The notes under the pieces: generated by a model
Databases searched by the model: none
What the model saw: only the letters and a program-made list of their open reading frames with translations
What the model was told of the DNA's origin: nothing
Shown here: positions 753 through 39,347 of the stretch, piece after piece
How positions within the stretch are numbered: the stretch's first letter is position 1
Layout: the number at the start of each line of letters is the position of its first letter
DNA from: Candidatus Chloroploca sp. Khr17
GTDB lineage: Bacteria > Chloroflexota > Chloroflexia > Chloroflexales > Chloroflexaceae
Assembly (NCBI RefSeq): GCF_004138165.1
Contig: NZ_RYFF01000003.1
Coordinates: forward strand, 186,001-250,000
Length of the DNA: 64,000 nt
Direction: 5' to 3'
Program-made: the position numbers and the translations under genes

Positions 753-3700
753 TTACCGTGTCGTTGCTGCCCGGATCGCCACCGGCAGATAGACGGTATG
801 CTGCGTCGGGCTCACCATGAGCCGCCACTCCGTTGCTGCCATGGGCATCACCTGCCCACGCGCCGTGACCAAACTCTGACCGTGCTCGCCGTCATCCACG
901 AGCGTGATCGCGGTCGCGGCGGTGTCGGTGCGCGCCCGCAACTGGATCTGCGCGAGTCGCACCTGGCCCGTGGGGAGCGGCGATGCGAGGGTGCCCCGCG
1001 CCAGGATGATCCGTCCGGCGATGGGATCGACCACCTGCTGGAGCGGGTGGTCGAGCGTGGCATCACCCGTCACGGCGAGCACTTCGAGCACGGTCGGGTC
1101 AAAGACCAACGTGGCGGCGGCCCCATCAATCCCGGTCGGTGGCGCGTTCACCGCCACCTCCAGGGTCACGCTTGCCCCTGCGGTGAGGTTCGGCACGACC
1201 TGCTGTGCCCACACCGCTGGCCTGCTGGCACGGGGTTCGGCGGGTGGTGCCGCCTCAGCCCCAAGCTTGCCGAAGTGCATGGCGAGCAGCGAGAAGTCAC
1301 GCAGATTGATGATGCTATCACCGTTGAAGTCAGCCCGCCCATCGTAGCCCGCACTGCCGCTGCTGCGCTCGAAGGTGCTGGCGAGCACCGAGAAGTCGAG
1401 CAACGAGACCCGATTGTCATTGTTGGCATCACCCGAGGAGAGCGGCCCGATGGCGATGGTTGCTTCGGTTCCGGTCAACGCCTGCGTCACCTCCACCCGC
1501 AGCGTCTGGGGATGCTTGACGCTCAGGGTATACGACCCCGGGGCGATCCCCGCGATCTGGAAGTATCCGGCCTGGTCAAGGGTCGGGGTCGCCTGATAGA
1601 CGGGCGTGGTGGTTCCAGCCGCACGCAGGCTCACCGTGAGCGGCAGGCTCAGGCGCGGATCCGGAACGCCGGGCTCGCCTTCGAGTTGAACCTCGACGGT
1701 AACGTCCATCCCATCGCTCCCGTCAGAATTTGGCGCAATGAACGGTGGCATCAGCACATCGTTCATCAGCGGCGGTGGATCGTTGCCTTGCTGCGCGAGC
1801 AACCCCTGCGCAAGAAAGCGTGTCCAGCCGTTGTCGCGGGTGATGTGAAAGAGGCGGTGCCCGACGTAGTTCATGAAGGCACTTTCATCCGTGCTACTCG
1901 CACGCGGCGGATAGAAGATCCCCAGGCCATGGGCGTTGTCGAGTTGCACGTTGTAGGTGCGTTCGCCCCCCTCGTAGACATTTACATATTGGAAGGAGCG
2001 ACTCGCACGCGAGGTGTAAGCCACGAAGCGCTGGTTGCTCGGCTCGGCCACCGCCAGCACCCGCTCGGCAGCGGCTTGCACCGCGCCATCCGGTACGCCA
2101 TCGCGTAGCTTGCGCGCTAGATCCACGACATCCACGTAGCTGTCTTCGTTGTCGGGTTCGAAGGGCTGGCCCTGGCCTGATTCGTACTTCTGCACGGTGC
2201 TGCGCAACTCACGCAGCGCCTGGCGGCGTGGCTCGCGATCAGCTTCCACGTAGTTCAACAGGCTCTGGCCGAGCGCACTGAGCGCCGCTTCGAGTTCGGC
2301 AAAATGGCCCAGGTCAAAGGCCGCAATGGTGTAGGGCAGCGCCTCGGCATTGATGGCTGTCGCATAGTGCTGCGCGATCTTGACGGCTGCATCACGCGGG
2401 TCGCTCGCCTGGCCGAGCATCTGGCGGTAGTGGTCGTAGGCAAAGATACCCCAGGCGGTGTTCGCCGACGCGACGACGAAGTCGGCCAGGCCCGCGGCAA
2501 TCGCGGCGTTCTCGAAGAGACCGAACGAACAGGCATCGTAGACGAGCAGGTCGAGTTTGCGTGCGCCATCATCGGTCGCTTCGATCAGGGCGGCCCGCAC
2601 CTCGAGCGAGGTGAGGAAGGGGGATGGGGTGTTCTCCACTTTGCTCGTATCGTCCTGGGCAATGCCAACAATGCCGTTGGCGTGGTTGACGATCGCCAGG
2701 GCGTAGTGATCCGTAGCGGGCAGACTGCTAAAACCCCAGGTGAGCAAGTCGCGCAGGGTGCCAGGCTCATCCATCCGCGCCTCGATGAGATCGGTGCGCG
2801 TCCAGTTGCCCGCGGCATCGAGGGTGTAGCGCCGCGTATCGTTGACCCTCGGCCCGTCATAGAGCACGGCGACCTGCACGTTAGCCTGCGGCCCGGCCTT
2901 CTGCAAGCGGTAGAGCATGCCGTTCAGGGCTGCATTCTCGCCCATCCAGGGGTCGAGGTTATTGTCGGCGGCAGCGTAGATCAGCAATGTCCAGCTCTGG
3001 CTCCCATATCCACCCCCACCACCGTCGCGAATGATGATCTGCTGCTCGACGGTGGGCGACCAGTCGCCCTCGTCGTCTTGCACCGCAAAGCTGATCGTAT
3101 GCACACCCACAGGAAGATCGGCGGCGGCACGACTGAAGCTGCGCTCGGTCGTGATCACGCTACCGTTGAGCATCCAACGATAGGCGCTGATCACATCGGT
3201 CGCATCAGAGTCGGCACCCGTTCCCTCAAAGCGGATGGTATCAACACCCTGCCTGGCATCACGCGGCAAGATGCGGTTGATCGTGGCGACTGGCAAGGGG
3301 CGCACGAGGCTGCCGCTGGCGCGATGGAGCCATACGCCTTCGATGCTGCTCGACGCGCCTTCACCACCGATCGCGACGATCCGATCCATCACCGGGTCGT
3401 AGGTCATCGCCAGGTTCGTCATCGCCGGGAGGGCAGGCACGCTCGCCCGCTCACGCCAGAAGATCCCGTTCCAATCCCAGGTGTCGCTGAGCAGACCGCT
3501 CGGGCCGGTGCCACCCGCGACCACGACGGCGCTGCGGAGGCTGTCGAAGGTAGCAGCGTGACCACTACGGGCAGTGAGGCGCAGCGTCGGCGTGACATCA
3601 ATCCAATTGGTTCCATCCCACTCCCACACGTCATCAAGAAGGCCGCGGCTATTTTGCCCCCCGATCAAGACTGCTCGGCCCCGCGCCGGATCGTAGGTAA

Positions 3701-6506
3701 GCGTGGCTTTGCCCCGCGCTGGTGGACTCGTCGCCGGACTACGCTGCGTCCAGGTCGTCCCGTTGTACTCCCAGGTATCGCCCAGGTAGGCACTGGCATC
3801 CTGCCCGCCAAAGAGCAGCCAGACATTGCGCGTCTGGTCGAAGGTGAGGCCGTAATTGGCGCGGGCCGTGGGACTGGTGGCCGGCGCTTGCACCAGCCAG
3901 TTGGCGGACGCACTCTCCCAGAGCCAGGTGTCATCGAGGTAGTTGTTGCTGTTGCTCAGCCCACCAAAGAGCAGCACCTGCGCACCGTCGCTGTTCCGCG
4001 CCAGGCGATGGCCCGAACGCGTCGTTGGCGGTGCGTTGGTCGGCGCTTGCAGCGTCATCCGCTGCCCATCCCAGAGATAGGTCTGGTCGTCAGCAGTTTT
4101 GCCCCCAAAGAGCAGACTCTCCCCGTTCACGGTATATTCCAGCGCCGCACCAGGGCGTTGTAACGGATGCGAGAGCAACATGCGCCAACGGGTACCGTCC
4201 CATTCCCAGGTATCTTCCAATTGAGTGCCATCGAAGAGGACGATGCGCTGACGGATGGGATCATAGGCCATGGCGTGACGGGAACGTGCGGTGGGACTAA
4301 AAGCCTGGACCTGCTGACTCCAGTTAGTACCGTCCCAAAGCCACATATCATTCAGATTCGTCGTGCCCCGGCCGCCAAAGAGCACGATCTGTTGACGGGC
4401 GCTATCATAAGCCATCGCATGGTCTGATCGGGCGAGGGGCCGTACATCAGCGGTACGCTCCGTCCAATTTGTGCCATCCCATTCCCAAAGGTCATTGTTC
4501 AGGCTGCCGCTATATCCGCCAAAGAGCACGACCCGTTGACGAACAGGATCATAGACCATCGCATGCTCGGTGCGGGCGGTGGGACTCGCAGCAGGAGTCA
4601 TCTGCGTCCAGTTGGTACCATCCCATTCCCAGGTGTCGTTCACGGGCCCAGAGCCTGAAGCTGACCCGCCAAAGAGCACGATGCGCTGGCGGACGGGGTC
4701 GTAGGCCATCGCGTGCTCAGTTCGGGCCGATGGTTGACTGGCAGGCTTGAGCTCGGTCCAAGTACGCCCATCCCAAACCCAGGTGTCATTGCGCCAACTG
4801 CCGCCGAAGAGGAGAACCTGTTGGCGGGCGCTATCGTAAACTATCGCATACTCATCGCGGTTCGGGGGGCTCGTGGCTGGCCAAGCGCGTTGCCAGCTTT
4901 GCCCATTCCAGAGCCAAGTTTCGTAGCCACGAAAGAGCAGCAACTGTTGAGTGCGTGGGTCAAAGACGAGACTATCATCATGAGTACTCGCCGACGGACT
5001 CAGCATTGGTGCGCTGCGCTGCCAGTTAGTGCCATCCCACTGCCAGGTTTCGCTGTTCATGTTGCCGGATTGGCTGATAAAAAGCATCATCTTCTGATGT
5101 GCAATATCATAAGCCATGGCCCCAAGGGTAGCCCCAGGTCTGACCACCGCCGATCGCTCGTGCCAGCTTTCACCATCCCATTCCCAGGTGTCGTAATAAT
5201 TGTTATAGGTGTCGTGACCGCCGAAGAGCACCACACGCTGACGGGCGGCATCGTACGCCAGACTATGATTGCGGCGGGCAGTGGGTTTGTTGATTGGGAA
5301 GAGCTTGAGCCACGTTGTGCCATCCCATTCCCAGAGATCGTTATTATGCGTACCCCCGTTCATACCACCGAAGACAACAACACGCTGACGAACTGCGTCA
5401 TAGGCCATGGCATGGCCCGAATACCCATCGGGACGTGCGGTCGGTGTCTGCACAATCCAGTTGGTGCCATCCCACTCCCATGTGCCTATGTCTATCTTGC
5501 CACTGCCTCCATAAAGGACGGTGCGCTGACGGGCACTGTCGTAGGCCATCTCGTGATCATACCGCGCCGACGGGCTGTCAACCGGGAAACGCTGCGTCCA
5601 ATTTGTCCCGTCCCACTCCCAGGTATCATTGAGGTAGTTCATGCTCGATACGAAGCCACCAAAGAGCACCACACGCTGGCGAGCGGCATCGTAGGCCATG
5701 GCATGGCTATGGCGGGCGGGCGGACTCACCGCCGGGGTCATCCGCAGCCAGCTGGCCCCGTCCCACTCCCAGGTATCGTTGAGCACACCACTCGCGCTAT
5801 TACCGCCAAAAAGGACGATGCGCTGGCGGGCGGCATCGTACACCATGGCATAACTATAACGCCCTGGTATCTCCCCTCGCGTCCAGGCCGATTCTACCGT
5901 ACGCTGGGGCAGCACCACATCAACTTGCTGGCCGCCCTCTTGGGCGATGAAACTGACGCTTTTGCTCTGCCCATCGGCGGTGGCGGTGATCGTCACGGTG
6001 TCGCCCGGTTCAGCCAGGAGTGCATTGGGATCACCAAGGTTATCGCTGAGCAGCGCCGCGAAGAAGGGCAAGCCACCCGCCTCACCGCGCTGGGTCTGGG
6101 TCGTGAGCGTGCGGTCACCGATGCTGATCGTCACCTCGGCCCCGGCAATCGGCACACCGTTCAGGTAGACGTAGCCGCTCACGCAGCAGATCACGGCGGC
6201 GAAGCTGTCGAGCGCCGCCCCACGGATGCACGAGCGCGGCAACGGTGGCGGGGCGAGCGTGGCCGCGAGCGGCATCATCGCCTGATCAGCGGTCGCCGTA
6301 ACCTGCTGATCCACGGCAAGCGGCCCTTCGGGGACACCCTGAGTGGCCGCTAGAGTCAAACTCGCCTCGGCAGCGGGCTGATCCACGGCAAGCGGCCCGT
6401 CTGGGACACCCTGGACAGTGGCGCTCGTGGTGAACGGCGACGACAAGAGCACGATCAGCAACGTGATGAGCAAGAGCAGGTTGGCAGGGTGGGTGAAGCG
6501 CCTCAT
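753..6506 (-). CDS. Giant secreted kelch-repeat/clostripain (C11) protein with dockerin and cohesin-like domains
   Basis: This is a 1917-residue secreted protein. Residues 1-30 form a signal peptide. A short duplicated segment (GVPDGPLAVDQ / GVPEGPLAVDQ) follows, then a Cys-bearing beta domain near residue 100. About 18 kelch-type repeats of roughly 50-58 residues (AMAYDxxRQRxVLFGG ... DTWEWDGTNW) fill about residues 215-1065 and would make beta-propellers. A PKD-like domain leads into a clostripain-family C11 peptidase (start near 1168, WTLLIYAAADNNLD) with catalytic His in IVNHANG (about 1273) and Cys in YDACSFG (about 1325). Next is a type I dockerin-like pair of calcium loops (GDANNDNRVSLLDFS and DFNGDSIINLRDFS, about 1692-1750), then a cohesin-like beta domain to the C terminus. 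ATG 6506 has AAAGGGA just upstream. Domain calls rest on motif recognition; substrate and partner are unknown. Confidence 0.9.
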   Translation of the reverse strand: MRRFTHPANLLLLITLLIVLLSSPFTTSATVQGVPDGPLAVDQPAAEASLTLAATQGVPEGPLAVDQQVTATADQAMMPLAATLAPPPLPRSCIRGAALDSFAAVICCVSGYVYLNGVPIAGAEVTISIGDRTLTTQTQRGEAGGLPFFAALLSDNLGDPNALLAEPGDTVTITATADGQSKSVSFIAQEGGQQVDVVLPQRTVESAWTRGEIPGRYSYAMVYDAARQRIVLFGGNSASGVLNDTWEWDGASWLRMTPAVSPPARHSHAMAYDAARQRVVLFGGFVSSMNYLNDTWEWDGTNWTQRFPVDSPSARYDHEMAYDSARQRTVLYGGSGKIDIGTWEWDGTNWIVQTPTARPDGYSGHAMAYDAVRQRVVVFGGMNGGTHNNDLWEWDGTTWLKLFPINKPTARRNHSLAYDAARQRVVLFGGHDTYNNYYDTWEWDGESWHERSAVVRPGATLGAMAYDIAHQKMMLFISQSGNMNSETWQWDGTNWQRSAPMLSPSASTHDDSLVFDPRTQQLLLFRGYETWLWNGQSWQRAWPATSPPNRDEYAIVYDSARQQVLLFGGSWRNDTWVWDGRTWTELKPASQPSARTEHAMAYDPVRQRIVLFGGSASGSGPVNDTWEWDGTNWTQMTPAASPTARTEHAMVYDPVRQRVVLFGGYSGSLNNDLWEWDGTNWTERTADVRPLARSDHAMAYDSARQQIVLFGGRGTTNLNDMWLWDGTNWSQQVQAFSPTARSRHAMAYDPIRQRIVLFDGTQLEDTWEWDGTRWRMLLSHPLQRPGAALEYTVNGESLLFGGKTADDQTYLWDGQRMTLQAPTNAPPTTRSGHRLARNSDGAQVLLFGGLSNSNNYLDDTWLWESASANWLVQAPATSPTARANYGLTFDQTRNVWLLFGGQDASAYLGDTWEYNGTTWTQRSPATSPPARGKATLTYDPARGRAVLIGGQNSRGLLDDVWEWDGTNWIDVTPTLRLTARSGHAATFDSLRSAVVVAGGTGPSGLLSDTWDWNGIFWRERASVPALPAMTNLAMTYDPVMDRIVAIGGEGASSSIEGVWLHRASGSLVRPLPVATINRILPRDARQGVDTIRFEGTGADSDATDVISAYRWMLNGSVITTERSFSRAAADLPVGVHTISFAVQDDEGDWSPTVEQQIIIRDGGGGGYGSQSWTLLIYAAADNNLDPWMGENAALNGMLYRLQKAGPQANVQVAVLYDGPRVNDTRRYTLDAAGNWTRTDLIEARMDEPGTLRDLLTWGFSSLPATDHYALAIVNHANGIVGIAQDDTSKVENTPSPFLTSLEVRAALIEATDDGARKLDLLVYDACSFGLFENAAIAAGLADFVVASANTAWGIFAYDHYRQMLGQASDPRDAAVKIAQHYATAINAEALPYTIAAFDLGHFAELEAALSALGQSLLNYVEADREPRRQALRELRSTVQKYESGQGQPFEPDNEDSYVDVVDLARKLRDGVPDGAVQAAAERVLAVAEPSNQRFVAYTSRASRSFQYVNVYEGGERTYNVQLDNAHGLGIFYPPRASSTDESAFMNYVGHRLFHITRDNGWTRFLAQGLLAQQGNDPPPLMNDVLMPPFIAPNSDGSDGMDVTVEVQLEGEPGVPDPRLSLPLTVSLRAAGTTTPVYQATPTLDQAGYFQIAGIAPGSYTLSVKHPQTLRVEVTQALTGTEATIAIGPLSSGDANNDNRVSLLDFSVLASTFERSSGSAGYDGRADFNGDSIINLRDFSLLAMHFGKLGAEAAPPAEPRASRPAVWAQQVVPNLTAGASVTLEVAVNAPPTGIDGAAATLVFDPTVLEVLAVTGDATLDHPLQQVVDPIAGRIILARGTLASPLPTGQVRLAQIQLRARTDTAATAITLVDDGEHGQSLVTARGQVMPMAATEWRLMVSPTQHTVYLPVAIRAATTR
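3310..5865 (-). repeat. In-frame tandem repeat encoding about 18 kelch units
   Basis: The DNA repeats at roughly 150-175 bp with strong conservation of the segments encoding YDxxRQRxVLFGG and WEWDGTNW. Divergence is lowest in units 8-12 (about 4300-4850), which suggests recent internal duplication. Units 6, 7, 13 and 14 are the most diverged. Confidence 0.85.
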
Positions 6507-6665
6507 AGGAGTCCCTTTGTTTCAGAGCATGTACTGTTGATCGTGCCGCATTGTTACCCTGAGACAAGGTTTCAGGGTGCTGTACCGTTTACGCTCAAAT
6601 GACCCGCTATGCGTGGCACCGGCTAGACCCGTGAGGTCTAGCGGATTCATTTCTGGAAGACCGTA

Positions 6666-6819
6666 AGTGGTCTGTCAACGACATTTCCCGGTCGCGCCGC
6701 CGACCACGAAGAACCCTCACGAAGACACGAAAACAGGCTTTGTGACGCACATATTCGTTCATTCGTGACCCCCATTCGTGGACGGCTGACGACACCAGAA
6801 AACTTCGTTGACACACTAC
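6666..6819. repeat. MITE-like palindromic element, copy A
   Basis: The 313-bp gap between the kelch and CHAT genes is mostly this element. Its outer ends are imperfect inverted repeats (AGTGGTCTGTCAACGA at the left, complement of AGTAGTGTGTCAACGA at the right). The interior is a degenerate self-complementary segment with the CCACGAA and ATTCGT words seen in copies B, C and D. Its right end lies directly against the stop codon of the CHAT gene. Confidence 0.7.
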
Positions 6820-9678
6820 TCAGCATGGCAATGCAGTTCCTTCAAGTGCCATTGGTATAAGGTAAGGCTCTCCAGCCACCGTCGGCGTTCCCTCTCGCAG
6901 CAACAGTTGAAACGCGGCCCAGTAGTAGGGATGGGCGTAGCCCCTGGCCCGCACCGCCGTACGCGCAGCGCTCAGGGCTTCGGTCGGATTCTGCCCTGCG
7001 GCAAGCCCCTGGTAGAACTGTTCCATCATCAGGCTGGTGGCTTGATCATGCACCGGCCACAAGCTCGCGACGACCGCCCGGGCCCCTGCACTCAAAAAGG
7101 CCCCCGCAAGCGCCAGGGCCACCCCGCCTCGTTCCGGGGTGGTGCCGGTCTCACAGGCGCTGAGCGTCACCAGGGCCGTGCCAGCCAGCGAGAGATTGAG
7201 CACGTCAGCGAGCAAGAGCGGGCCGTCGGCCAGGTTGAGTTGGGAGAGCAAGGGGGCATAGGGGTTGACCTGGCCGTGAACAGCGAGGTGCAGGAAGGTC
7301 GGCGGCGCTTCCCAGTGCAGATCACCCAGGTGCGCTGGGTAGACCTGACGGGCTGACGGGAATTGGCGCTGGATGGCCCCAAGTTCGGCGACGACATAAG
7401 GAAGAGGGGGTTGGCCTTCCCAGCCAAGCAGCAAGGGCGTTCCCGTAGCCTGGGGCAAAGGTGGCATGGCAAGCAGCGCAAGCGAGGGCATCAGGTGCAG
7501 GGCGTACCGCTCGTCGAGGTAGCGCGCCGCAGCCTGGGTGTGGTCGCGCAGCGCCGCCCATGGCACACTGTAGAGCGGCCCATCCGGGGCGATGATCACC
7601 TGGCTCACATCAGCAGCGAAGGTAGCGATGATCGGCGCGATCAGCAGGTGGTAGAGTTCGCCCAATAACCGCTCGCTGGTCGCAAGCTGCCCCGTAGCCA
7701 TGCGCTGCTGTTGCGCGGCCGAGCCACAGTGCCCCAACGCATGGTGCTGAAGCGTCAGCCGACTCAGCAGTTGCGTCACCTGCGCCACCGGACCAAGCTC
7801 CACCTGGCGCACCGCTGCGTCAGCCGTCAGCAGAAACGCCCAGATCTGCCCCTCGGCAACGAGGTACTCGACGCCAACACTGGTGGACGGCAAGCACTGG
7901 TGGATCGACGCCAACGCGGGGAGGGTCTGCGCGGTACGCTGGCGGAGGTGCTGGCGCGCCAGGCGCTGCAAAGTCGTCTCGGCCTGCTTGATCCGCTCGG
8001 CACAGAGGGTCTGGTAGGCGAGCTCGTCCTCGGGATGCATCTGCGCCCGCCAGTAGTCCCACGCGGTCTTGGCACCGAGCCAGGCTGGATCCTGGAGCAG
8101 CGACACGTGCAGTGAGTCGGCGCTCGGCGCGGCGAGCTCAGCCCAGATCCCGCCCTTGGCTTCGAGCAGACTCTGCATGGCTGCCTCGAGGCGACCGGCG
8201 TGCCGATAGCTGCTGATCAGGTGAGCATAGAGCAGAGCCGTGCCTGTCAGATAGCTTGCCTTCAACTCTTCGCTCGGCAGCATCCGCCGGGTTGTCGCGG
8301 CCAGGTCGGCCGCCCGCTGCAGGGGCACCCAGGCTTCGGTGGCAGGCAGCCGACTGGCCTGCTCAACGAGGGCGCGCTGCTCGAGGCCATCGAGCCCATG
8401 CGTACGGGCCACGTCAGCCAGGTGCTGATAACGCCCCACAGCGGCCCTGCCAGACTGGGTCAAGGCTGCCGCCAATAAATCCAGTTCGAGTTGCTCGGCC
8501 AGCACCCCGGCGTCCGCGATGGTCGCCTGAGCCGCCACCACCTGGGCCAGGGCACGGCGACGCTCAACCGAGGTACGCTGGAAGCGCGGGTGAGCCGTGT
8601 ACCCCTGGAGCAAGGCCTGGAGCACCGGCGGCAACGGGGACTGGGTGGCGAGCGCCGTCGCACGCGCAAGATCCTGGCGGGCAAGCGCGTTCTGATCGAG
8701 AGCCAGGGCCAGCCGCACCGCAGACAGCATAGCCTCAACCGCCTCTTGAAGCAACCCGGCCTGCTCAAACATATGGGCCGCCTGAAGCGCGGCGCGGCGG
8801 GCTTCGAGGGGCAATTGCAGGCGCTCGAAGAGCGCCGCTTCTTCGAGCGCGACCGTCGCCTGGTCAAGCTCGATCCGGGCCGTGGCAAAATCGGTACGGG
8901 CCTGATCCAGCAGGCGCAGCGCGGTGAAGAGCTCGCCACGATAGGTGGCGAGCCGCGCCTGATTCACCGCGACGCGCGCACGCAGTTCGGCAGAGCCACA
9001 TGCCTCAGCCACCGCACCTGCACGTTCGAGCGTCGCTTCCGCCAGCGTAAATTGACCCAGGAAGAGCACCGCAAAAGCCTGGTTGATCAGCGCCTCGGCC
9101 TGCGCGGCCGGCTGGTGATGGCTCACCGCCAGCGCCTCGGCCTCGCGGGCCGTCGCGAGCATGGCCTCGTAGTGGCCCATCCGCCCTTCAAGATCAGACC
9201 GGTTCATGTAGAGCGCTGACAAGCGATTCTGGGCGTCTGGTAAGTCTGCCAGGCACTCAGCTGCGCGCCGGATCGCCGCGTGCGCTTCGTCGAGCCGACC
9301 GAGTTGCCCCAACAACCCGGCCCGTCCGATCAGCAGGCGTCCCTGTTCAAGCCGACGATCCTGCACCACAAAGTAGGCATAAGCGGCATCAAGGTGGCTC
9401 AAAGCTGGCCTGGTCTCCCGATTGAGCAGCGCCAACCCATGACACCAGTGGGCAAAGGCCGTCGCCTCGGGGTGCTGCGTCTGCTGCGCGACCGCCCAGG
9501 CACACGCCACCGCCAGTTCAACCTCGGAGACTGCCCCGGCATCGAGCAGGTCAAGCATCGTATCGCGCAACTGCGCCAGGAGCGCCAGTGGCTCGACCTG
9601 ATTAACTGCCAGCCACGCGGCGATCCGGGCTGGCTCACCCTGGGTCGCCCATAGTGCTGGCAGCAGCGCCTCAAGCAT
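6820..9678 (-). CDS. TPR-CHAT protein (caspase-like protease)
   Basis: About 952 residues from ATG 9678. I prefer this start to the open frame reaching 9819 because it overlaps the upstream gene by 8 bp (ATGCTTGA), typical of translational coupling. The first two thirds is a long helical TPR-like solenoid rich in Ala/Leu/Gln. A CHAT domain covers the last 280 residues. The caspase-type dyad is present: His in HLAVHGQVNP (about residue 800) and Cys in TLSACETGTT (about 841). The conserved ASLWPVHDQAT and HPYYWAAFQL segments follow. No signal peptide or membrane segment is seen, so it is probably cytoplasmic. CHAT proteases of this build cleave partner proteins when the TPR senses a trigger; the target here is unknown. 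It is third in a sigma/adaptor/CHAT operon. Confidence 0.9.
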   Translation of the reverse strand: MLEALLPALWATQGEPARIAAWLAVNQVEPLALLAQLRDTMLDLLDAGAVSEVELAVACAWAVAQQTQHPEATAFAHWCHGLALLNRETRPALSHLDAAYAYFVVQDRRLEQGRLLIGRAGLLGQLGRLDEAHAAIRRAAECLADLPDAQNRLSALYMNRSDLEGRMGHYEAMLATAREAEALAVSHHQPAAQAEALINQAFAVLFLGQFTLAEATLERAGAVAEACGSAELRARVAVNQARLATYRGELFTALRLLDQARTDFATARIELDQATVALEEAALFERLQLPLEARRAALQAAHMFEQAGLLQEAVEAMLSAVRLALALDQNALARQDLARATALATQSPLPPVLQALLQGYTAHPRFQRTSVERRRALAQVVAAQATIADAGVLAEQLELDLLAAALTQSGRAAVGRYQHLADVARTHGLDGLEQRALVEQASRLPATEAWVPLQRAADLAATTRRMLPSEELKASYLTGTALLYAHLISSYRHAGRLEAAMQSLLEAKGGIWAELAAPSADSLHVSLLQDPAWLGAKTAWDYWRAQMHPEDELAYQTLCAERIKQAETTLQRLARQHLRQRTAQTLPALASIHQCLPSTSVGVEYLVAEGQIWAFLLTADAAVRQVELGPVAQVTQLLSRLTLQHHALGHCGSAAQQQRMATGQLATSERLLGELYHLLIAPIIATFAADVSQVIIAPDGPLYSVPWAALRDHTQAAARYLDERYALHLMPSLALLAMPPLPQATGTPLLLGWEGQPPLPYVVAELGAIQRQFPSARQVYPAHLGDLHWEAPPTFLHLAVHGQVNPYAPLLSQLNLADGPLLLADVLNLSLAGTALVTLSACETGTTPERGGVALALAGAFLSAGARAVVASLWPVHDQATSLMMEQFYQGLAAGQNPTEALSAARTAVRARGYAHPYYWAAFQLLLREGTPTVAGEPYLIPMALEGTALPC

Positions 9679-10354
9679 GGGAAAGCGTGAGCGGAGGGAG
9701 CAGCACCACCCCCTCGGCAAAATGCACTTGTACCAGATACGTGCCAGCCGCAAGACGCGCAAAGGTAAAGAAGCCGTCGGCATCAGTCGTACGGGGGCGA
9801 GGCCGCGCCTGATCACCACGGAGCCTCACCCGCACATCAGGGGCAGGCTGATCATGGTGCGTCACATAGCCCTCGATCCGCCAGTAATCGTTCTCTGGCG
9901 GCGGAAGGCGGAGCACAATCTGGACGGCAAGTTCACTCGCGTAGAAGGATTGATCGGGCACAACTGGCGCGATACTGCGCATACCAGCGCCAAGCAACTG
10001 CGGCAGCGCCACAAAACGCGGCAACCTGAAGCGGACGGGCCGATCGGCTGGTTGACTCTGGAGCGCCAAGAGTTCGGTGAACGTCGCTTTGGCGCGGGGA
10101 TTAGCGCGCACATAGGCCGCAACGCGAAGCTGTTGCTGCGGCGTCGCCTGACCAGTGGCCACATCAACGAGATCCTGGGGCTCAGGGACAGACAAGCCCT
10201 CCAAGCGTTCGTGGAGATGCTGCACAGTTCGACGCAATTGCGCAAACTCCTGCCGCACCTCGGCTGAGGCCTCCAGAGCCTGTTCAACATGCGGCAGCGC
10301 CACACCATCGAGATACGCCAGCAAATCACCAGGTTCAAGCGGTTTATTATTCAT
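9671..10354 (-). CDS. Anti-sigma-like adaptor with carboxypeptidase-regulatory-like domain
   Basis: 227 residues. The N-terminal 50 residues (PGDLLAYLDGVALPHVEQ...) look like the helical head of zinc-type anti-sigma factors but lack His/Cys zinc ligands. A second similar helical segment (VDVATGQATPQQQLRVAAYV) follows at about 85. The C-terminal 75 residues form a carboxypeptidase-regulatory-like (transthyretin-like) beta domain (IEGYVTHHDQPAPDVRVRLRG ... ADGFFTFARLAAGTYLVQV, in two parts). No transmembrane helix is visible. Lying between a sigma factor and a CHAT protease, with an 8-bp overlap to the latter, it may link the two; that role is inference. Confidence 0.75.
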   Translation of the reverse strand: MNNKPLEPGDLLAYLDGVALPHVEQALEASAEVRQEFAQLRRTVQHLHERLEGLSVPEPQDLVDVATGQATPQQQLRVAAYVRANPRAKATFTELLALQSQPADRPVRFRLPRFVALPQLLGAGMRSIAPVVPDQSFYASELAVQIVLRLPPPENDYWRIEGYVTHHDQPAPDVRVRLRGDQARPRPRTTDADGFFTFARLAAGTYLVQVHFAEGVVLLPPLTLSHA

Positions 10355-10389
10355 ACAAACGTTCCCTACATAAGGTATATAGCAATCCT

Positions 10390-10539
10390 AGTAGTCTGTA
10401 ACCTAAGTTTTCTGGGGTCGTTCGCCGACCACGAATGGGGCCACGAAGAAACGAATACCGCACCGCCCCTATTCGTTTCTTCGTGATCAGTATTCGTGGT
10501 CGGCGGCGCTACCGGGAAATGTAGTTGACACACTACTTA
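10390..10539. repeat. MITE-like palindromic element, copy B
   Basis: This element fills the 301-bp gap between the adaptor and sigma genes together with a degenerate AGACCTGTGAGGTCT unit near 10577. Outer ends are AGTAGTCTGTAACCTAAG (left) and the complement of AGTAGTGTGTCAACTACA (right). The interior, about 10422-10506, folds into a nearly perfect long stem whose outer arms are GCCGACCACGAAT and ATTCGTGGTCGGC. The element sits inside the presumed operon, so it may be transcribed as a stable RNA hairpin. Confidence 0.75.
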
Positions 10540-10655
10540 TGGTCTTCCAGTACATAATTCGGTATGCGCGACACGGGCGAGACCTGTGAGGTCTGGTCTA
10601 CCTAGCGCATCATCCATACTAGCAACATAAACCAGAATCACAACCTATTTCCACA

Positions 10656-11339
10656 TCAATCTTCAAGCATATCACGGATCTCAGGCAACGTACGGAGCAG
10701 CTTAATGCACCGCTCGATCAGGCGATAGACAGCTTTGATCGTCAGCGAAGCATCGCGATCACGGAGCGCCGCCGTGATCGTCGCGGGATCTTCATCGAGC
10801 ACAAAGCGGCGACGAAAGACCTCGCGGTGCAACTCATCAGGCAGCAGTTCGAGGCAACGGTCGTAGAAGGCATAGCGCATCACAGCATCTGTCGCTTCGC
10901 CCTGGCTTGGCTGAACACGCAGCGCCTCGAGATCCACCGTCGGGGCGCGGCGGGGCATTTTGAGGCAGGTGTGGACGACCGTCGTATGCACATACACACG
11001 GTATTCGGCAAACGAACGCGCCTGATACGGCGAGGTCGGATGGCGAAATTTGCGCAGCAGATTGATCGCCACCTCCTGCTGCAGGTCGTCCAGATCTGGA
11101 CGACACTGAACAGGGCACAGCTTGCGGACGAGGGGGATGCTAATCAGCCAGAGCCGCGCAAAGGCAGCCTGGTCGCGGTTGGCCGCACGGCGCAGAATCT
11201 CTTCGCAACTGCGACTATCCTGGCGGTTGTCGCGTGATTGCTGAAAGGCAGCGAGTTGGGCTTCACAGCGGCTATGCAGATCATCAAGCGCAAGCGAACC
11301 CAGCGGGGTATCGGGATCAGAAGAAGAAGTAGCGCCCAT
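10656..11339 (-). CDS. Sigma-70 family (ECF-like) sigma factor linked to CHAT protease
   Basis: About 227 residues from ATG 11339 (GAGGG 9 bases upstream; an open frame extends 7 codons further). The N-terminal half has a region-2-like segment (DLDDLQQEVAINLLRKF) and the C-terminal half a region-4-like helix-turn-helix (LPDELHREVFRRRFVLDED ... IKAVYRLIERCIKLLR). It is shorter and more diverged than housekeeping sigma factors. A perfect TGACGCT-C-AGCGTCA palindrome lies 40 bases upstream. It is first in a three-gene minus-strand series with the adaptor and CHAT protease, so it may control them or respond to them. Confidence 0.75.
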   Translation of the reverse strand: MGATSSSDPDTPLGSLALDDLHSRCEAQLAAFQQSRDNRQDSRSCEEILRRAANRDQAAFARLWLISIPLVRKLCPVQCRPDLDDLQQEVAINLLRKFRHPTSPYQARSFAEYRVYVHTTVVHTCLKMPRRAPTVDLEALRVQPSQGEATDAVMRYAFYDRCLELLPDELHREVFRRRFVLDEDPATITAALRDRDASLTIKAVYRLIERCIKLLRTLPEIRDMLED

Positions 11340-11378
11340 AACGAGAACCCTCAACGACAATGATGTGGTTACGATGGG

Positions 11379-11393
11379 TGACGCTCAGCGTCA
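11379..11393. promoter_or_regulatory. Candidate operator palindrome upstream of sigma gene
   Basis: A perfect 7-bp inverted repeat with one central base (TGACGCTCAGCGTCA) lies 40-54 bases upstream of the sigma gene start. Size and position suit a dimeric regulator site. No convincing -10/-35 pair could be assigned next to it. Confidence 0.4.
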
Positions 11394-11786
11394 TTTTACT
11401 TTATTCGCGCTACCTGAATTGTACTACAAACAGATACGAGGTTCAACTGCTCTGCGGCTGAAACCTTTAACCCCGTCCCTTGGCTGGGCCTCGGCTCGCT
11501 CATATCGGGAGAGGTCGGGCCTGTTGGTGCGAGGGTATGCACATAACAGTTTTGTCATCCTAACATCCGACGAGTCTTAACATTGCTCTGCTATTATCGT
11601 CGCTGATCACACCCTCCGTTTTCATCCCTAGCACGGCTGCACCAAAGCTGTGACATTCTGCGCCCCGAGGCGATTTGTTGCTTGCTCTCGACGTTATGGC
11701 GAGGGTCAGTTTGCTTGTGCTTTGCAAACGTCGGTAATGTGCATTGCACGACACGGGAACTCACCCGAAGAGCGCGCAATGCTCTA
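11394..11786. other. Gene-poor stretch upstream of sigma and nuclease genes
   Basis: Between the divergent sigma and nuclease genes there are 680 bases without a convincing gene. The right part is a MITE-like element (annotated separately). In the rest, frames of 60-100 codons on both strands have no domain pattern and overlap the repeat. I see no RNA gene. Confidence 0.5.
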
Positions 11787-11940
11787 AGTAGTCTGGGAAA
11801 GAAGTTTTCTGGTGTCGTCAGCCGTCCATGAATTGGGGCCACGAAGCAACGAAGAGCGCATGGAGCAGCCCATCTTCGTTGCTTCGTCATCAGTATTCGT
11901 GGTCGGCGGTGCTACCGGGAAACTTAATTCCCAGACTACT
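11787..11940. repeat. MITE-like palindromic element, copy C (perfect 13-bp ends)
   Basis: The ends are a perfect inverted repeat (AGTAGTCTGGGAA and its complement). TA dinucleotides within them directly flank GTCTGGG/CCCAGAC, which would fit a TA target duplication as in IS630/Tc1-type elements. The interior has the CCACGAAGCAACGAAGA / TCTTCGTTGCTTCGT complementary arms shared with copies A, B and D. No coding capacity. Confidence 0.8.
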
Positions 11941-12020
11941 AAGCCAGGATGGTGCCTTTGACATAGGGGTGGATCGATCAGCGTTTGAGGTTTGTATAGC
12001 GATCTGAGGGAGAAAAAGGC

Positions 12021-15000
12021 ATGATGGCTTTGGGTAGACATCGGCGACGTGCTACAGGCATACGCCTAGTGAGTAGTCTTGGGCTATTACTCGCCCTACT
12101 GGTTTCCATCATTGGGTTCGCACCAGCATCGGTTTTTGCGACAACCACGTTCACGCAGTGGACGTTCAATTCGGTACCGCCTGATGGCAGCACAGGAACC
12201 GGAACGCTTGACCCGGCAACAGGTGCCGGTACCACTGCCCTCGTCGGCGGCACTAGCGGTGTTTTTGCCAGTGGCACAGCAGGCAATGGTAGCTCTGATC
12301 CGGCTGCAACTGATAACTCGGGTTGGAATGTCACTACCTTTGCGGCTCAAGGCACCGGCAACGAGACACGTGGGGTGCAGTTTAATGTAAGTACGGTTGG
12401 TCGTCAGAATATTGTTGTGAGCTGGGATCAGCGCCATAGCAATACCGCCTCGCGTTTTGTGCGCTTTCAGTACAGTACCGACGGCACCAACTTTACCAAT
12501 GTCGAGCCTCTCTTTGAGGCCACCGGGGGCGATACCTGGTTCAACGGGCGTAGCGTGAGTCTGGCCGGGTTGCCTGGCGTCAATAATAATCCCAATTTTG
12601 CCTTTCGCATTGTGGCGGCCTTTGCACCTGGAAGCAGTGCCTACGCAGCCTCGAATGCCACCTCAACCTATGGCACAACGGGAACCTGGCGCTTTGATAT
12701 GGTGACGGTGATCGGTGAGCCCCTGGCGAGCGGGCCAGAAGCCCCGGCGATCACGACGGAACCGCAGAGTCAGAGCATCGCTGATGGCACAACCACCACC
12801 CTGACGGTCGCCGCAACTGGCACCGCCCCGCTGAGCTATCAGTGGTACCAGGGCAGTGCACCTGACACAACCAATCCTGTTGGAGACAATAGTCCAACCT
12901 TTACCACGCCGATCCTCAATGCAACCACCAGCTATTGGGTGCGCGTGAGCAACGAGGTGGGCAGTGTTGATAGCCAGACGGCAACGCTGACGGTTACGCC
13001 ACCGACGCCGATCTGCGAACAAGCATTTGTGCCGATCTATGCCATTCAGGGCAACGGCAATAGTGCGGCCGTGACCGGCAGTGTCACCACGCAGGGCATT
13101 GTGGTTGGCGATTTCCAGGGACCATCCCCTGCCCTCCGCGGTTTCTATCTGCAAGATCCGGTTGGCGACGGCGACCCGACAACTTCTGATGGCATCTTTG
13201 TCTTCAATGGCAATGCTGTCACGGTGCAACTCGGCCAACAGGTACGCATCACCGGCACAGCCGGCGAATTCCAGGAGCAAACGCAGATCAGCTCGGTTGC
13301 GAGCATCATTGATTGTGGAATCGCTGCCACCGTCACACCAACTGATGTGATGATGCCCTTCCCCGATGCGGTGAATGGCGTACCCTATCTTGAGCGCTAC
13401 GAGGGCATGCTGGTACAGTTCCCGCAGCAACTCTTTGCCACCGAATTCTTCCAGCTTGGGCGCTTTGGGCAGATCGTGATGTCGTCGGGGGATCGCTTGC
13501 GTCAACCAAGCAATGTGGTTGAACCAGGCGCTGCCACCATTGCGTTGCAGGCCGCCAATAATCTGAATCGCATCATTGTTGACGATAACCTGAACAATCA
13601 GAACCCCGATCCGATCCTCTTCGGACGCGGCGGCCAGCCCCTCAGCGCAAGCAATACGCTGCGCGGTGGCGATAGTATCACTGGCATGGTTGGCGTGATG
13701 ACCTATGGGTGGGCCGGCAATGCGGCAAGCCCGAACAACTACCGCCTGCGCCCCGTGGGTGCGCTCGGTGGGGGCGTCCCTGACTTCCAGCCAACCAATC
13801 CGCGCCCAACGGCCCGACCTGAGGTTGGTGGCTCGCTCAAGGTTTCAGCCTTTAATGTGCTCAATTACTTTTTGACGATTGACACGACGGCCAGTTCAAC
13901 CGTTGGCGACTGCGGTCCGCTGCAGAATGCTGATTGTCGTGGGGCTGATTCGCTGTTGGAGTTCGAGCGCCAGCGCACCAAACTGGTGCAGGCCCTGCTC
14001 AAGCTCGATGCCGATATCCTTGGCCTGATCGAGCTCGAGAATACGCCCGGTGTCTCGCCTGAGGGCGATATTGCCGCTGCACTCAACACCGCCCTGGGAG
14101 CCAATATCTATCGTTATGTCGATACGGGCATCATCGGCACCGACGCCATTCGGGTCGGCTTGCTCTACAAGCCGACCCGCGTCCAGCTCGTAGGTGACTT
14201 TGCGGTGCTTGATGCGGCAGCATTCGTCAATCCTTTCAATGCCGAAACTGACCGCAACCGACCCGCACTTGCCCAGACCTTCCGTGAAATCGCGACAGGC
14301 GGCGAAGTGACGGTCGTGGTCAATCACCTCAAGAGCAAGGGTTCGGCCTGTGGTCCCGGCGATGATGATCTGACCGACGGCCAGGGCAACTGCAATGGTA
14401 CCCGTACCGCCGCTGCGCTCGCCCTGATGGAATGGATCGCGACTGATCCGACCGGCAGCGGCGATACAGATTGGCTCATTATCGGCGATCTGAATGCCTA
14501 TGCCAAAGAAGATCCGATTGCGGTCATTGAGGAGTTTGGCTTTGTCAATCTGATCGAGCGGTTTGGTGGAGTCAATGCCTACTCATACGTCTTCGATGGA
14601 CAATGGGGCTACCTCGACCACGCCCTGGCCTCGCCCGGCCTGGCCGAGCAGGTGACAGGCACCGGCGAGTACCATATCAATGCCGACGAACCAAGCGTGC
14701 TCGATTACAACGTCGAGTTCAAGAGTCCGAATCATATCGAGAGCCTCTTTGCCCCCGACGAGTTCCGCACCTCTGATCACGACCCGGTGCTGATCGGCTT
14801 GAACCTGACGCGGCCCAATAGCGCGCCGGCGCTGTCGGCGCTCGCTACGTACGATACCGGCCTTGGCGACCGTGGGGCCGAGATCATCAGTGTCAGTGGT
14901 GATCGGGCGGTACTCTCGAACGCGGGTGATGGTAGCGTTGATCTACTCGATCTCAGTGCGTTGCCTGACCTCAGCCTGATCCAACGGCTACAGTTCCCCG

Positions 15001-17270
15001 AACTTGCCAACCTGACCTCGGTTGCCATCCACCCGACCAGAGATCTCTTTGTGGCCGTTGCCGGAAACAGCAACCCCCGTTCGGGCCGCGCCTTCGTCTT
15101 CCGTCTTTCGGACGGCATGCCGCTGGTGCAATTCATTGTCGGCCTTGATGCCACCTCGCCTGACGGACGCCAGCCTGACTCGGTGGAAATTTCGCCTGAC
15201 GGACGCTTTGCCGTCATTGCGATCGAAGCCGAGCAGGTCAGCGCAACCGATGATGGTGGCGCAGGTGCGCTCGTGGTGATGGATTTGAGCGCGTTTGACC
15301 CGGCCAACCCTGATGCATCGGCACTGACCGTCAGCACAGTTGAGTTCCCCGACATCGCGGGTGTGCCGGGGGTTAGCATCGGTCGTACGCACGGTGACGC
15401 GAGCGGCGCAGCGATAACCAATGCGCCTGGCACCATCGAGCCAGAAGGGATCGCGTTTGCGCCCGATAGCCAGACGGTTTTCGTGGCCTTGCAAGAGAAC
15501 AACGCCATCGCACGGTTGAGTCTGGCTGAGCCGTTGCCCACGATCATGCCGACCGACAACATCTTCGGGTTGGGCCAGGTTGCGTTGCTGACCGACCGCA
15601 CCAACGACGGCATCTACAACCCGAACGAGCTCCTGGTCGCGTTCCGCGAGCCGGATGGCATCCGTGCGGTAGAAATTGGCGGCACGCTCTATCTGATCAC
15701 CGCCGACGAAGGCGATACGCGCCCCAACCCACGTGGTGGCCGCACGATCAGCATCTTCAATGCCAGCACCGGGGCCTTCATCACCGATCTGAGCAACCAG
15801 TTGGCCGATCTTGCCAACCAATATGGCGTCTACCCGGATAATCGCAGCCCGAATGGTGGCGTCGAGCCCGAAATGCTTGACGTGATCAGGGTGAACGGAC
15901 GCATCCTGGTCGCTGTTGGCCTTGAGCGGGCCAATGCAATGGCTTTTGTTGACATCACCACGCCGACGGCCCCGCAGGCCTTCGGGTTGGTACGAACAGG
16001 CCTGGCCCCTGAAAGCATCAAGCTCATTGAGCGCACGGGGCAACTCTTTGCGCTCAGTGCCAACGAGGTCTCAGGCACCGTGACGATTGCGACGGTTCCG
16101 GTGAACGCCCCGAACATCACGCTAGGCTACACCGAAGCCACGCCGCGCAACTTTGGGCTTGGGGCCATTGACCGTGATCGCAGCGACACCCTGACGCTCG
16201 ATCTGCTGGTGAGCCCGGCCAGTCTCGGCAGCCTCAGCAGCAGCCTCGCCGGGCTAGACGACCTGGGTGGTGGCCTGTATCGGGCAACCGGCAACACCGC
16301 CACGCTGAACACGCTGAGCGCGAATCTCATCTTTACGCCAGCACCAGACGCACGAGACACCGCGACCGTCAGCGCCAGCGTGAGCGACGGCATCAACCCG
16401 GTGGCAACAGGAACAATCAGCTTCGAGGATCGCACTCCTGACGTCACCCCACCCACGACCACAGCCAGCATAAGTGGTGAAAGCAATCCGCTCTGCCCGA
16501 GCGACTGCTTTGCTGGCAGCGCAACCGTGACGCTCAAGGCCGAGGATGATCGTGCTGGGGTGAACACGATCTGGTACCGCATCGGGGAAGCCGACTTCGC
16601 ACCCTACAATGCCCCGATCGTGCTTACCACCGAGGGCACGAACCGGGTCGAGTTCTTTGCCACCGACAATGCTGGCAATCGCGAAGCGGTGCAAAACATC
16701 GTCGTCAAAGTCAGCGACTTCCCTGCCAGGGGCGTCCTCGACAACTTCGACCGAGCCGACGGGAGACTGGGCAACAACTGGCGTGGTGCAACCCAACTCG
16801 ATCAGTACCGTCTCAATGACGGCCTCGTCAGCGTTGGCAAAGGTGGGTTGCTCATGTGGCGCGCACCGGCCTTCGGGCCTGACCAGGAAGCCTTCATGCG
16901 CCTGAGCACGCTCAACCCGACGAGCACGCACTATACACTGGCCTTGAAAGTACGTGGGCAGAGCAGAGCCCTTCTGGTTAGCTACGACGCACCGGGGCAA
17001 CGCATAAGCGTCGAGGCGCTCGTGCCAGGGCGAGGTTGGCGCAGCGTAGCAAGTTATCCGGTGACCCTCCAACCGGGTGCGCTGCTTGGGGCAAGGGCTT
17101 TTGCTGACGGCACAATCGCCGTGTATGCCGACTGCCTGCTGCTTGGCACAGCCGATACACGGACGGTCGCTGGCAATACCTATGTCAGACAGGGTGGTCA
17201 GATTGGCGTCTGGTTTATGAACGCCGCAGGGGCCGCCTTCGATGACTTTGGCGGAGGCAACCTGCCCTAA
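12021..17270 (+). CDS. Secreted multidomain ExeM/NucH-type nuclease with choice-of-anchor-like propeller
   Basis: 1749 residues from ATG 12021 (or 12024), with GAGGGAG upstream. A long signal peptide (about 1-40) is followed by a beta domain, an Ig-like domain (about 242-328) and an OB-like ExeM segment (from about 338). An endonuclease/exonuclease/phosphatase domain spans about 607-928, with SAFNVLNYF, NHLKSKGS, IIGDLNAY and the C-terminal SDHDPVLIG motif carrying metal-binding and catalytic Asp/His. Next comes a propeller-like region (about 934-1354, GAEIISVSGDRAVLSNAGDG) of the choice-of-anchor I kind, then a cadherin-like and a bacterial Ig-like module with a Cys pair (CPSDC), and a LamG/concanavalin-like C-terminal domain. 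It probably degrades extracellular DNA. It is the only gene between two hairpin-bounded gaps. Confidence 0.9.
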   Translation: MMALGRHRRRATGIRLVSSLGLLLALLVSIIGFAPASVFATTTFTQWTFNSVPPDGSTGTGTLDPATGAGTTALVGGTSGVFASGTAGNGSSDPAATDNSGWNVTTFAAQGTGNETRGVQFNVSTVGRQNIVVSWDQRHSNTASRFVRFQYSTDGTNFTNVEPLFEATGGDTWFNGRSVSLAGLPGVNNNPNFAFRIVAAFAPGSSAYAASNATSTYGTTGTWRFDMVTVIGEPLASGPEAPAITTEPQSQSIADGTTTTLTVAATGTAPLSYQWYQGSAPDTTNPVGDNSPTFTTPILNATTSYWVRVSNEVGSVDSQTATLTVTPPTPICEQAFVPIYAIQGNGNSAAVTGSVTTQGIVVGDFQGPSPALRGFYLQDPVGDGDPTTSDGIFVFNGNAVTVQLGQQVRITGTAGEFQEQTQISSVASIIDCGIAATVTPTDVMMPFPDAVNGVPYLERYEGMLVQFPQQLFATEFFQLGRFGQIVMSSGDRLRQPSNVVEPGAATIALQAANNLNRIIVDDNLNNQNPDPILFGRGGQPLSASNTLRGGDSITGMVGVMTYGWAGNAASPNNYRLRPVGALGGGVPDFQPTNPRPTARPEVGGSLKVSAFNVLNYFLTIDTTASSTVGDCGPLQNADCRGADSLLEFERQRTKLVQALLKLDADILGLIELENTPGVSPEGDIAAALNTALGANIYRYVDTGIIGTDAIRVGLLYKPTRVQLVGDFAVLDAAAFVNPFNAETDRNRPALAQTFREIATGGEVTVVVNHLKSKGSACGPGDDDLTDGQGNCNGTRTAAALALMEWIATDPTGSGDTDWLIIGDLNAYAKEDPIAVIEEFGFVNLIERFGGVNAYSYVFDGQWGYLDHALASPGLAEQVTGTGEYHINADEPSVLDYNVEFKSPNHIESLFAPDEFRTSDHDPVLIGLNLTRPNSAPALSALATYDTGLGDRGAEIISVSGDRAVLSNAGDGSVDLLDLSALPDLSLIQRLQFPELANLTSVAIHPTRDLFVAVAGNSNPRSGRAFVFRLSDGMPLVQFIVGLDATSPDGRQPDSVEISPDGRFAVIAIEAEQVSATDDGGAGALVVMDLSAFDPANPDASALTVSTVEFPDIAGVPGVSIGRTHGDASGAAITNAPGTIEPEGIAFAPDSQTVFVALQENNAIARLSLAEPLPTIMPTDNIFGLGQVALLTDRTNDGIYNPNELLVAFREPDGIRAVEIGGTLYLITADEGDTRPNPRGGRTISIFNASTGAFITDLSNQLADLANQYGVYPDNRSPNGGVEPEMLDVIRVNGRILVAVGLERANAMAFVDITTPTAPQAFGLVRTGLAPESIKLIERTGQLFALSANEVSGTVTIATVPVNAPNITLGYTEATPRNFGLGAIDRDRSDTLTLDLLVSPASLGSLSSSLAGLDDLGGGLYRATGNTATLNTLSANLIFTPAPDARDTATVSASVSDGINPVATGTISFEDRTPDVTPPTTTASISGESNPLCPSDCFAGSATVTLKAEDDRAGVNTIWYRIGEADFAPYNAPIVLTTEGTNRVEFFATDNAGNREAVQNIVVKVSDFPARGVLDNFDRADGRLGNNWRGATQLDQYRLNDGLVSVGKGGLLMWRAPAFGPDQEAFMRLSTLNPTSTHYTLALKVRGQSRALLVSYDAPGQRISVEALVPGRGWRSVASYPVTLQPGALLGARAFADGTIAVYADCLLLGTADTRTVAGNTYVRQGGQIGVWFMNAAGAAFDDFGGGNLP

Positions 17271-39215: not shown

Positions 39216-39347
39216 AGGCGTCCTCAGCCGTCCACCAATTGGGGCCACGAATGACCGAATAGCGCATGGAGCAGCCCATATTCGTTTATTCGTTATCAGC
39301 ATTCGTTGACGGCGGTGCTGGCAGAAAACTTAAGTTACAGACCAATA
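39216..39347. repeat. MITE-like palindromic element, copy D (left end worn)
   Basis: The interior GGGGCCACGAATGACCGAAT...AGCGCATGGAGCAGCCCAT (in two parts) closely matches copy C. The right end is the complement of TTATTGGTCTGTAACTTAAG. The left terminal repeat is not recognisable, as if cut by the deletion that also damaged the ABC exporter gene. Confidence 0.7.

Follow-up and report, generated by a model that had tools for sequence, protein, structure and literature searches.

A putative CRISPR-free sigma factor switch gated by a TPR-CHAT protease in Candidatus Chloroploca sp. Khr17

In the type III-E CRISPR system, the protease Csx29 cuts Csx30 and relieves CASP-sigma, as described in PMC10028731. 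In type III CRISPR, CalpT is cut by CalpL, which leads to the release of CalpS according to PMC11417357 and PMC11229360. The actinobacterial ECF54 context, named after a group of extracytoplasmic function (ECF) sigma factors, comprises the sigma factor, a carboxypeptidase-type protein, a CHAT protein and a subtilase, and is read in PMC8999054 as regulated without an anti-sigma factor. An ECF sigma factor is also found beside a caspase-fold protease in the EACC2-caspase neighbourhoods described in PMC8195603. In this study, we describe a locus from Candidatus Chloroploca sp. Khr17 (Chloroflexota), located in a window of 64,000 nucleotides, i.e. the whole stretch analysed (contig NZ_RYFF01000003.1, positions 186,001 to 250,000), which encodes a diverged sigma factor, an anti-sigma-like adaptor and a TPR-CHAT protease. 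Judged by sequence and gene order, the three genes are one conserved unit. We lean modestly towards reading the locus as a CRISPR-free, protease-gated sigma switch, in which CHAT would cut the adaptor and thus free the sigma factor.

Read along the minus strand, which encodes all three genes, the order is sigma factor, adaptor, TPR-CHAT protease. The sigma gene (10656..11339) encodes 227 aa from an ATG and is recognized by the family profile A2. The adaptor gene (9671..10354) also encodes 227 aa, with two degenerate ZAS-type modules lacking zinc ligands, a linker and a C-terminal beta domain. The protease gene (6820..9678) encodes 952 aa from an ATG, within a longer GTG frame that starts at 9819, and is recognized by Pfam and the family profile A7. 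The original prediction, made from the letters of this stretch, had proposed three same-strand genes with the sigma factor first and an 8-bp overlap of the last two; both agree with the open reading frame (ORF) coordinates, the adaptor stop and the CHAT start sharing 9671-9678. The operon layout that it proposed stands for the order of the genes, but sigma and adaptor genes are separated by 301 bp that include a dispersed-repeat copy.

The type III-E CASP/Craspase system likewise combines a TPR-CHAT protease, a sigma inhibitor and an ECF-type sigma factor, and Csx29 is among the nearest solved CHAT proteins to the window family. A CHAT-domain profile reaches only eight solved sequences at E<=0.01, namely Csx29, a TPR-CHAT, 8rot and five chains listed simply as 'CHAT domain protein', which we take to be type III-E entries. 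The window CHAT matches the NCBIfam Csx29 model (NF041237) with E=2.4e-13 and 49.8 bits, however, short of the cut-off of 300 bits. Type III-E also has Cas7-11, whereas none of the 15 RAMP matches of the genome falls on the window contig C92. Membership in type III-E was rejected on the Csx29 score and the lack of a RAMP match on this contig. Csx30 has 565 residues (PMC10028731) as against 227 aa for the ZAS-type adaptor, and no Csx30 chain was listed at E<=10 when the adaptor sequence profile was searched against PDB chains. RAMP (type III CRISPR-like) matches of the host genome are located on contigs C60, C93, C142 and C146, and C142 also has a CHAT about 15 kb away.

A ZAS module and CHAT are also found in one system in DdvA (PDB 8rlz, 8rot, 8rw5), whose partner is presumably DdvS of Myxococcus xanthus. 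DdvA is the best anti-sigma match of the adaptor profile (E=1.1e-3), and 8rot is matched by the CHAT-domain profile (E=5.9e-12). The entry 8rot is a 991-aa 'CHAT domain-containing protein' with CHAT at its end, and the aligned letters of its N-terminus are identical to the anti-sigma factor DdvA of 8rlz, from which we infer that 8rot is DdvA. It carries ZAS and CHAT in one chain, whereas the window unit has separate genes, its adaptor combines two modules with a beta domain, and zinc is lost in the window copy. The CalpL-CalpT-CalpS pathway, as portrayed in PMC11417357 and PMC11229360, follows the same course, from an anti-sigma factor cut by a protease to the release of an ECF sigma factor; CalpL differs in being a cA4-activated Lon-family protein with a SAVED sensor and no CHAT, in place of the CHAT of the window unit. 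The EACC2 neighbourhoods differ in their partner, a DUF1822 TPR protein, and in the protease family. The Csx29 and CalpL switches are parallels by analogy, not proof, for cut-and-release in the window. In the open-licence literature no non-CRISPR sigma/anti-sigma/CHAT module of Chloroflexota was found, which is not proof of absence.

The three-gene order was sought in other Chloroflexota and recurs across the phylum, so the arrangement is more than chance. A search with the single adaptor sequence was positive for 25 related genomes out of 100. With a 21-row adaptor profile, matches were obtained in 78 of the 158 class genomes searched and in 102 of 400 genomes sampled from the phylum; these figures include weak and partial matches. 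DNA around the better adaptor hits was fetched and its open frames were labelled by profiles. Of the resulting 84 adaptor-centred loci, 75 have the sigma gene adjacent or fused. Among the same 84, CHAT is located behind the adaptor on the same strand in 59 and nearby on the opposite strand in 6; three end at a contig edge (L054, L055, L057), and 16 have none nearby. This count omits hits of at least 420 aa without a sigma part, which are secreted repeat proteins, together with L174 and L175, and its gaps are those between open frames, not start codons. It includes locus L173 of Nonomuraea, whose sigma gene was missed by the script owing to overlapping frames.

Loci found via the adaptor are uninformative on how often CHAT occurs without it, for which a CHAT-centred count serves. 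At least 57 matches were found in 82 genomes of the order; the cut of 590 bits was chosen by the analyst, and the best ten candidates per genome were scored, which makes 57 a lower bound. Eight matches are cut by contig ends, one of them (L178) with sigma beside CHAT, and the adaptor adjoins CHAT in 47 of the 49 others. Seven of these 47 were judged by coordinates, and three rest on contig-end fragments (G018:C288, G019:C53, G023:C104). A chance neighbourhood was rejected by these linkage counts. Regular occurrence of homologous CHAT genes on their own had been named as an outcome against the original prediction; close relatives do not behave so, with 47 of 49 next to an adaptor, but the CHAT superfamily does. 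In the host genome (6.38 Mb, 171 contigs, 13 CHAT matches), ten other CHATs have no sigma or adaptor match in their surroundings, a survey that leaves aside those on the short contigs C138 and C90.

In a tree of the CHAT part with 76 rows, four of five unlinked host-genome CHATs stand apart on long branches, and the fifth, L078, pairs with the second CHAT of L133. Adaptor-less rows are also placed inside the linked clades, including L180, L186 and the plasmid rows L174 and L175. Neither a sigma nor an adaptor match was found in the loci of these plasmid relatives, from Caballeronia (L174) and Nostoc (L175), and a plasmid search with the fused-type adaptor gave zero matches.

The CHAT domain matches Pfam PF12770 with E=4.1e-52 and 177.9 bits, well over the cut-off of 24, and the TPR part is recognized by weak Pfam matches and profile A7. 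The motifs HLAVHG at 797 and SACETG at 840 supply the His/Cys dyad, which had been predicted to be intact and is so, the Cys previously placed at about 841 being residue 842. His801 (codon 7276..7278, minus strand) and Cys842 (codon 7153..7155, minus strand) are both invariant in the 22 rows of A7, and in a wider alignment they are kept in 71 and 69 of 74 rows, respectively. His801 was assigned by its place in the motif; His797 is also conserved. Five rows depart from the dyad: L133 and L147, whose frames are incomplete, L187, and two unlinked CHATs, L083 and L175. This retention in nearly all members speaks against a conformational switch without cleavage, in which a signal-bound TPR-CHAT would pull the adaptor off the sigma factor and the dyad would serve another substrate or none. 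Sigma-adaptor fusions, described below, could act as single-chain allosteric switches of that kind, yet we hold such a mechanism to be very unlikely.

The first gene had been taken for a diverged sigma factor, and the family profile bears this out. The single sequence is weak (TIGR02937, 18.9 bits against a cut-off of 42.9) and below curated cut-offs, and no sigma chain was found among the PDB matches of the window protein searched alone. Profile A2, built from 21 relatives, matches solved ECF sigma factors over profile positions 32-208 with a best E-value of 6e-9, so that by its family profile, which covers the sigma2 and sigma4 regions, the window protein is an ECF-type sigma factor. The sigma factor of the type-B relative L181 has Sigma70_r2 above the cut-off and r4 below it.

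The window adaptor has no Cys residue, and the six zinc-ligand columns of the alignment are occupied by A, S, V and Y, N, A, in accordance with the predicted anti-sigma-like protein without zinc ligands. Its relatives keep the ligands. HxxxCxxC occurs twice in 41 of the 84 adaptors, once in 16 and not in 27, with an alignment-based count in agreement, as against 10 of 1932 other ORFs of similar size; one of the 84 rows, L067, is a broken gene. The zf-HC2 domain is over the Pfam cut-off in the adaptors of L072, L151 and L144 and under it in L154. Profile A1, with 21 rows (20 of 32 adaptor stretches plus the window adaptor), matches the solved anti-sigma chains DdvA, 3hug (which we take to be RslA), ChrR and RsiW with E-values from 1.1e-3 to 0.31, and its top PDB match, through the beta domain, is NOMO2 (1.4e-14), which is not an anti-sigma factor. 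Because relatives keep HxxxCxxC and the profile matches anti-sigma chains, the adaptor is by sequence descent an anti-sigma factor, and the window copy is read as a tandem anti-sigma module with both zinc sites lost.

The branch designated type B (L181, L182, L183, L187, L190-L195) combines a zinc-less adaptor, CHAT and, where found, a more canonical sigma factor. In Nonomuraea, locus L173 gives matches to the type-B profiles (sigma 5e-42, adaptor 6e-7) and lines up a subtilase, a sigma factor, an adaptor relative and CHAT in a row. By gene order it resembles the ECF54 context. For ECF54, with its carboxypeptidase, subtilase and CHAT neighbours, proteolysis without an anti-sigma factor is proposed in PMC8999054, and on that proposal CHAT might act on the sigma factor itself, with the adaptor as specificity factor or scaffold and not as substrate. 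L173 suits such an arrangement, and in the fusions a cut at the sigma/adaptor junction would fall within the sigma chain. Since anti-sigma zinc modules are clear in the adaptor family, the absence of an anti-sigma factor is unlikely for the zinc-bearing members, whereas type B and Nonomuraea adaptors are without these modules. We regard direct action of CHAT on the sigma factor as unlikely, and retain the adaptor as the preferred substrate.

The predicted fusion of the adaptor to a beta domain was recovered as a CarboxypepD_reg-like domain at residues 141-224 (9683..9934, minus strand) by Pfam and structure modelling. The Pfam match at residues 160-211 scores 32.3 bits, exactly the cut-off. 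The structure model is of low confidence (mean predicted local distance difference test, pLDDT, 60; predicted template modelling score, pTM, 0.37) and displays two three-helix units followed by beta strands. A structure search with it is dominated by the beta domain, the best match having a Z of 8.3, hardly above noise, and no anti-sigma fold is among its listed rows. The linker at 100-140 has pLDDT below 50 and contains Arg126 (codon 9977..9979, minus strand), just before the beta domain. Of 76 rows, 72 have a basic residue at this position (Arg in 66, Lys in 6), and we propose it as a candidate cut site.

Short adaptor relatives, in frames of 136-158 aa, consist of two zinc modules only and lie behind a related sigma gene; a VWA protein is next in three of four tested. 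The host genome also has such a short form, L150 (G000:C8:1-8000), with a sigma factor and a 157-aa tandem zinc anti-sigma factor, no beta domain and no CHAT nearby. CHAT is near 65 of 75 beta-domain adaptor loci as opposed to none of the five without a beta domain (L068, L072, L073, L076, L150), with Fisher p=1.2e-4 for loci that are related and not independent. Because beta-domain adaptors and not the short forms have CHAT nearby, the helical modules probably face the sigma factor and the beta domain CHAT. The same association would fit the reverse direction, where the adaptor restrains CHAT as an effector of protein degradation or cell death, the sigma factor helps to express CHAT, and the output is something other than sigma release. 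Links of caspase-fold proteases to conflict and cell-death systems are described in PMC8195603, and PADLOC BovA weakly matches the window CHAT (E=4.3e-6). However, the adaptor has modules of the sigma-binding type and is fused to sigma, not CHAT, in eight loci, which makes the reverse direction improbable to us. Separately, in L054:2132-6841, L055:423-8126 and L057:808-3444, large CarboxypepD_reg-type proteins, one with CAP, are divergent from the sigma gene and carry domains resembling the adaptor beta domain.

Sigma and adaptor share a single frame of 487-565 aa, with CHAT next, in the eight loci with fusions (L066, L070, L075, L131, L132, L133, L134, L138). Both sigma/anti-sigma and, in 8rot, anti-sigma/CHAT fusions exist, and thus argue for one functional unit. 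Seven CHAT partners of the fusions fall in one supported 11-row clade of the CHAT tree, together with three split versions and the orphan L186. The partner CHAT of L133 is truncated and outside the tree, and the row L133_4106, labelled 'fused', is the second CHAT of that locus. This second CHAT gene lies immediately upstream of the fused sigma-adaptor on the same strand (L133:2317-5845). A Met just before the adaptor start motif is present in all eight fused frames by reading and in seven by a strict pattern; in five of these seven AGGA, GGAG or GAGG occurs within 22 nt before it, which we take as no more than a lead. The internal Met, e.g. in L075:3796-5256, is a possible second start yielding free adaptor. 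By eye, six of the eight rows show a run of basic residues ahead of SL or FL in the fused linker, again as a lead. A model of a natural sigma-adaptor fusion was tried as a stand-in for the complex and rejected as poor (pTM 0.26, only 4 rows used); with it Foldseek returned nothing at E<=0.001, and sigma-E 1or7 came second at 7e-3.

A probable fourth gene of the unit lies behind CHAT (753..6506, minus strand) and encodes 1917 aa with a Kelch propeller, clostripain (C11), CarboxypepD_reg, dockerin and cohesin domains according to Pfam. The His and Cys of its C11 domain align with relatives, and its N-terminus is hydrophobic and signal-like, which suggests that the protein is exported. Counterparts are found directly behind CHAT in the same-genus loci L044 and L045. 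The same-strand genes behind 44 CHAT frames form clusters of 17, 11 and 6 plus 10 singletons; the 44 include the two halves of one split CHAT (L147), and one of the next genes is the L133 fused sigma-adaptor. A subtilase was found in nine of nine scanned members of the cluster of 17. The cluster of 11, which includes the L044 and L045 counterparts, has propeller-type repeats in nine of nine scanned, clostripain in six and CAP in one. The cluster of 6 has an amidohydrolase in two of two scanned, and the singleton L132 has a polysaccharide-synthesis type protein.

In the preferred mechanism, the two helical modules of the adaptor would hold the sigma factor at rest while the beta domain docks on TPR-CHAT. 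A signal sensed by the TPR part would activate CHAT, which would then cut the adaptor, the linker near Arg126 being the most likely place. Once damaged, the anti-sigma factor would let the sigma factor go, possibly after being degraded further, a course proposed for CalpT and Csx30. The freed sigma factor would turn on its targets, perhaps including the peptidase gene behind CHAT, here that of the Kelch-clostripain protein. If true, the locus would provide a natural CRISPR-free setting for a Csx29-type switch, where it becomes askable what is sensed without a guide RNA, and the puzzling 'carboxypeptidase' neighbour of ECF54 becomes a testable anti-sigma factor. The fused, split and zinc-less versions lend themselves to comparing how a sigma factor might be freed by a protease.

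Several observations weigh against this mechanism. Two close CHATs, L180 and L186, have no adaptor, and ten beta-bearing adaptors have no nearby CHAT though the contig continues (L059, L074, L139, L143, L145, L148, L162, L166, L168, L169). Four adaptor-CHAT loci away from contig ends have no adjacent sigma gene (L046, L064, L183, L193); in L051 the missing sigma gene goes with a run of N. A cut at the position of Arg126 in the fused proteins leaves the sigma factor joined to the anti-sigma helices, and simple cut-and-release is therefore harder there; the difficulty would vanish if the stump were degraded, if a further cut fell in the linker or if release needed no cleavage. Arg126 adjoins the beta domain, and a structural role may be a fair alternative for its conservation. 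Both structure models are poor (pTM 0.26 and 0.37) and uninformative on interfaces. A peptidase target is not general, as the polysaccharide-type gene of L132 and the six loci of the amidohydrolase cluster demonstrate. The sole promoter-like site before the sigma gene (11418..11446, minus strand; TTGAAC, 17 nt, TACAAT) resembles the housekeeping type, so there is no sign of sigma self-activation. This possible promoter is the only such site in 6400-12100, as against 1.1 expected by shuffling, and aligns in both other genomes of the genus (L044, L045). By eye, histidine-kinase- or PAS-like frames adjoin L193:4113-5825 (adaptor-CHAT, no sigma) and L186:8083-10077 (CHAT alone).

A wider extension is put forward tentatively, and we consider it rather doubtful. 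The unit may be a general CRISPR-independent protease-gated sigma switch of TPR-CHAT and anti-sigma factor, related to DdvA, which itself or through its kin was the source of the type III-E Csx29-sigma branch. An input, RNA-guided in the case of Csx29, would bring about the cut near the conserved basic residue of the adaptor. In Chloroflexota it might form a two-compartment relay, from cytosolic CHAT to a sigma-induced exported subtilase or propeller-clostripain protein.

The spacer between sigma and adaptor genes (10355..10655) contains a dispersed repeat copy at about 10408-10540. The spacer is shorter in L045 and longer, with a different insert, in L044, and in some relatives the sigma and adaptor open frames abut, their ends being 4 nt apart in L047 and L071. 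The spacer 3' of CHAT (6507..6819) contains sequence of the dispersed repeat and measures only 15 nt in L044 and L045; the final residues of CHAT, adjoining a repeat copy, differ from those of these two relatives. The repeat is about 130 bp long with inverted halves and has 78 partial matches genome-wide. Copies in the window are located at 6639-6823, 10408-10540, 11811-11943 and 39217-39349, two of which fall within the sigma-adaptor-CHAT-clostripain unit. Divergent from the sigma gene, window positions 12021-17270 encode a large protein with Exo_endo_phos and choice-of-anchor domains.

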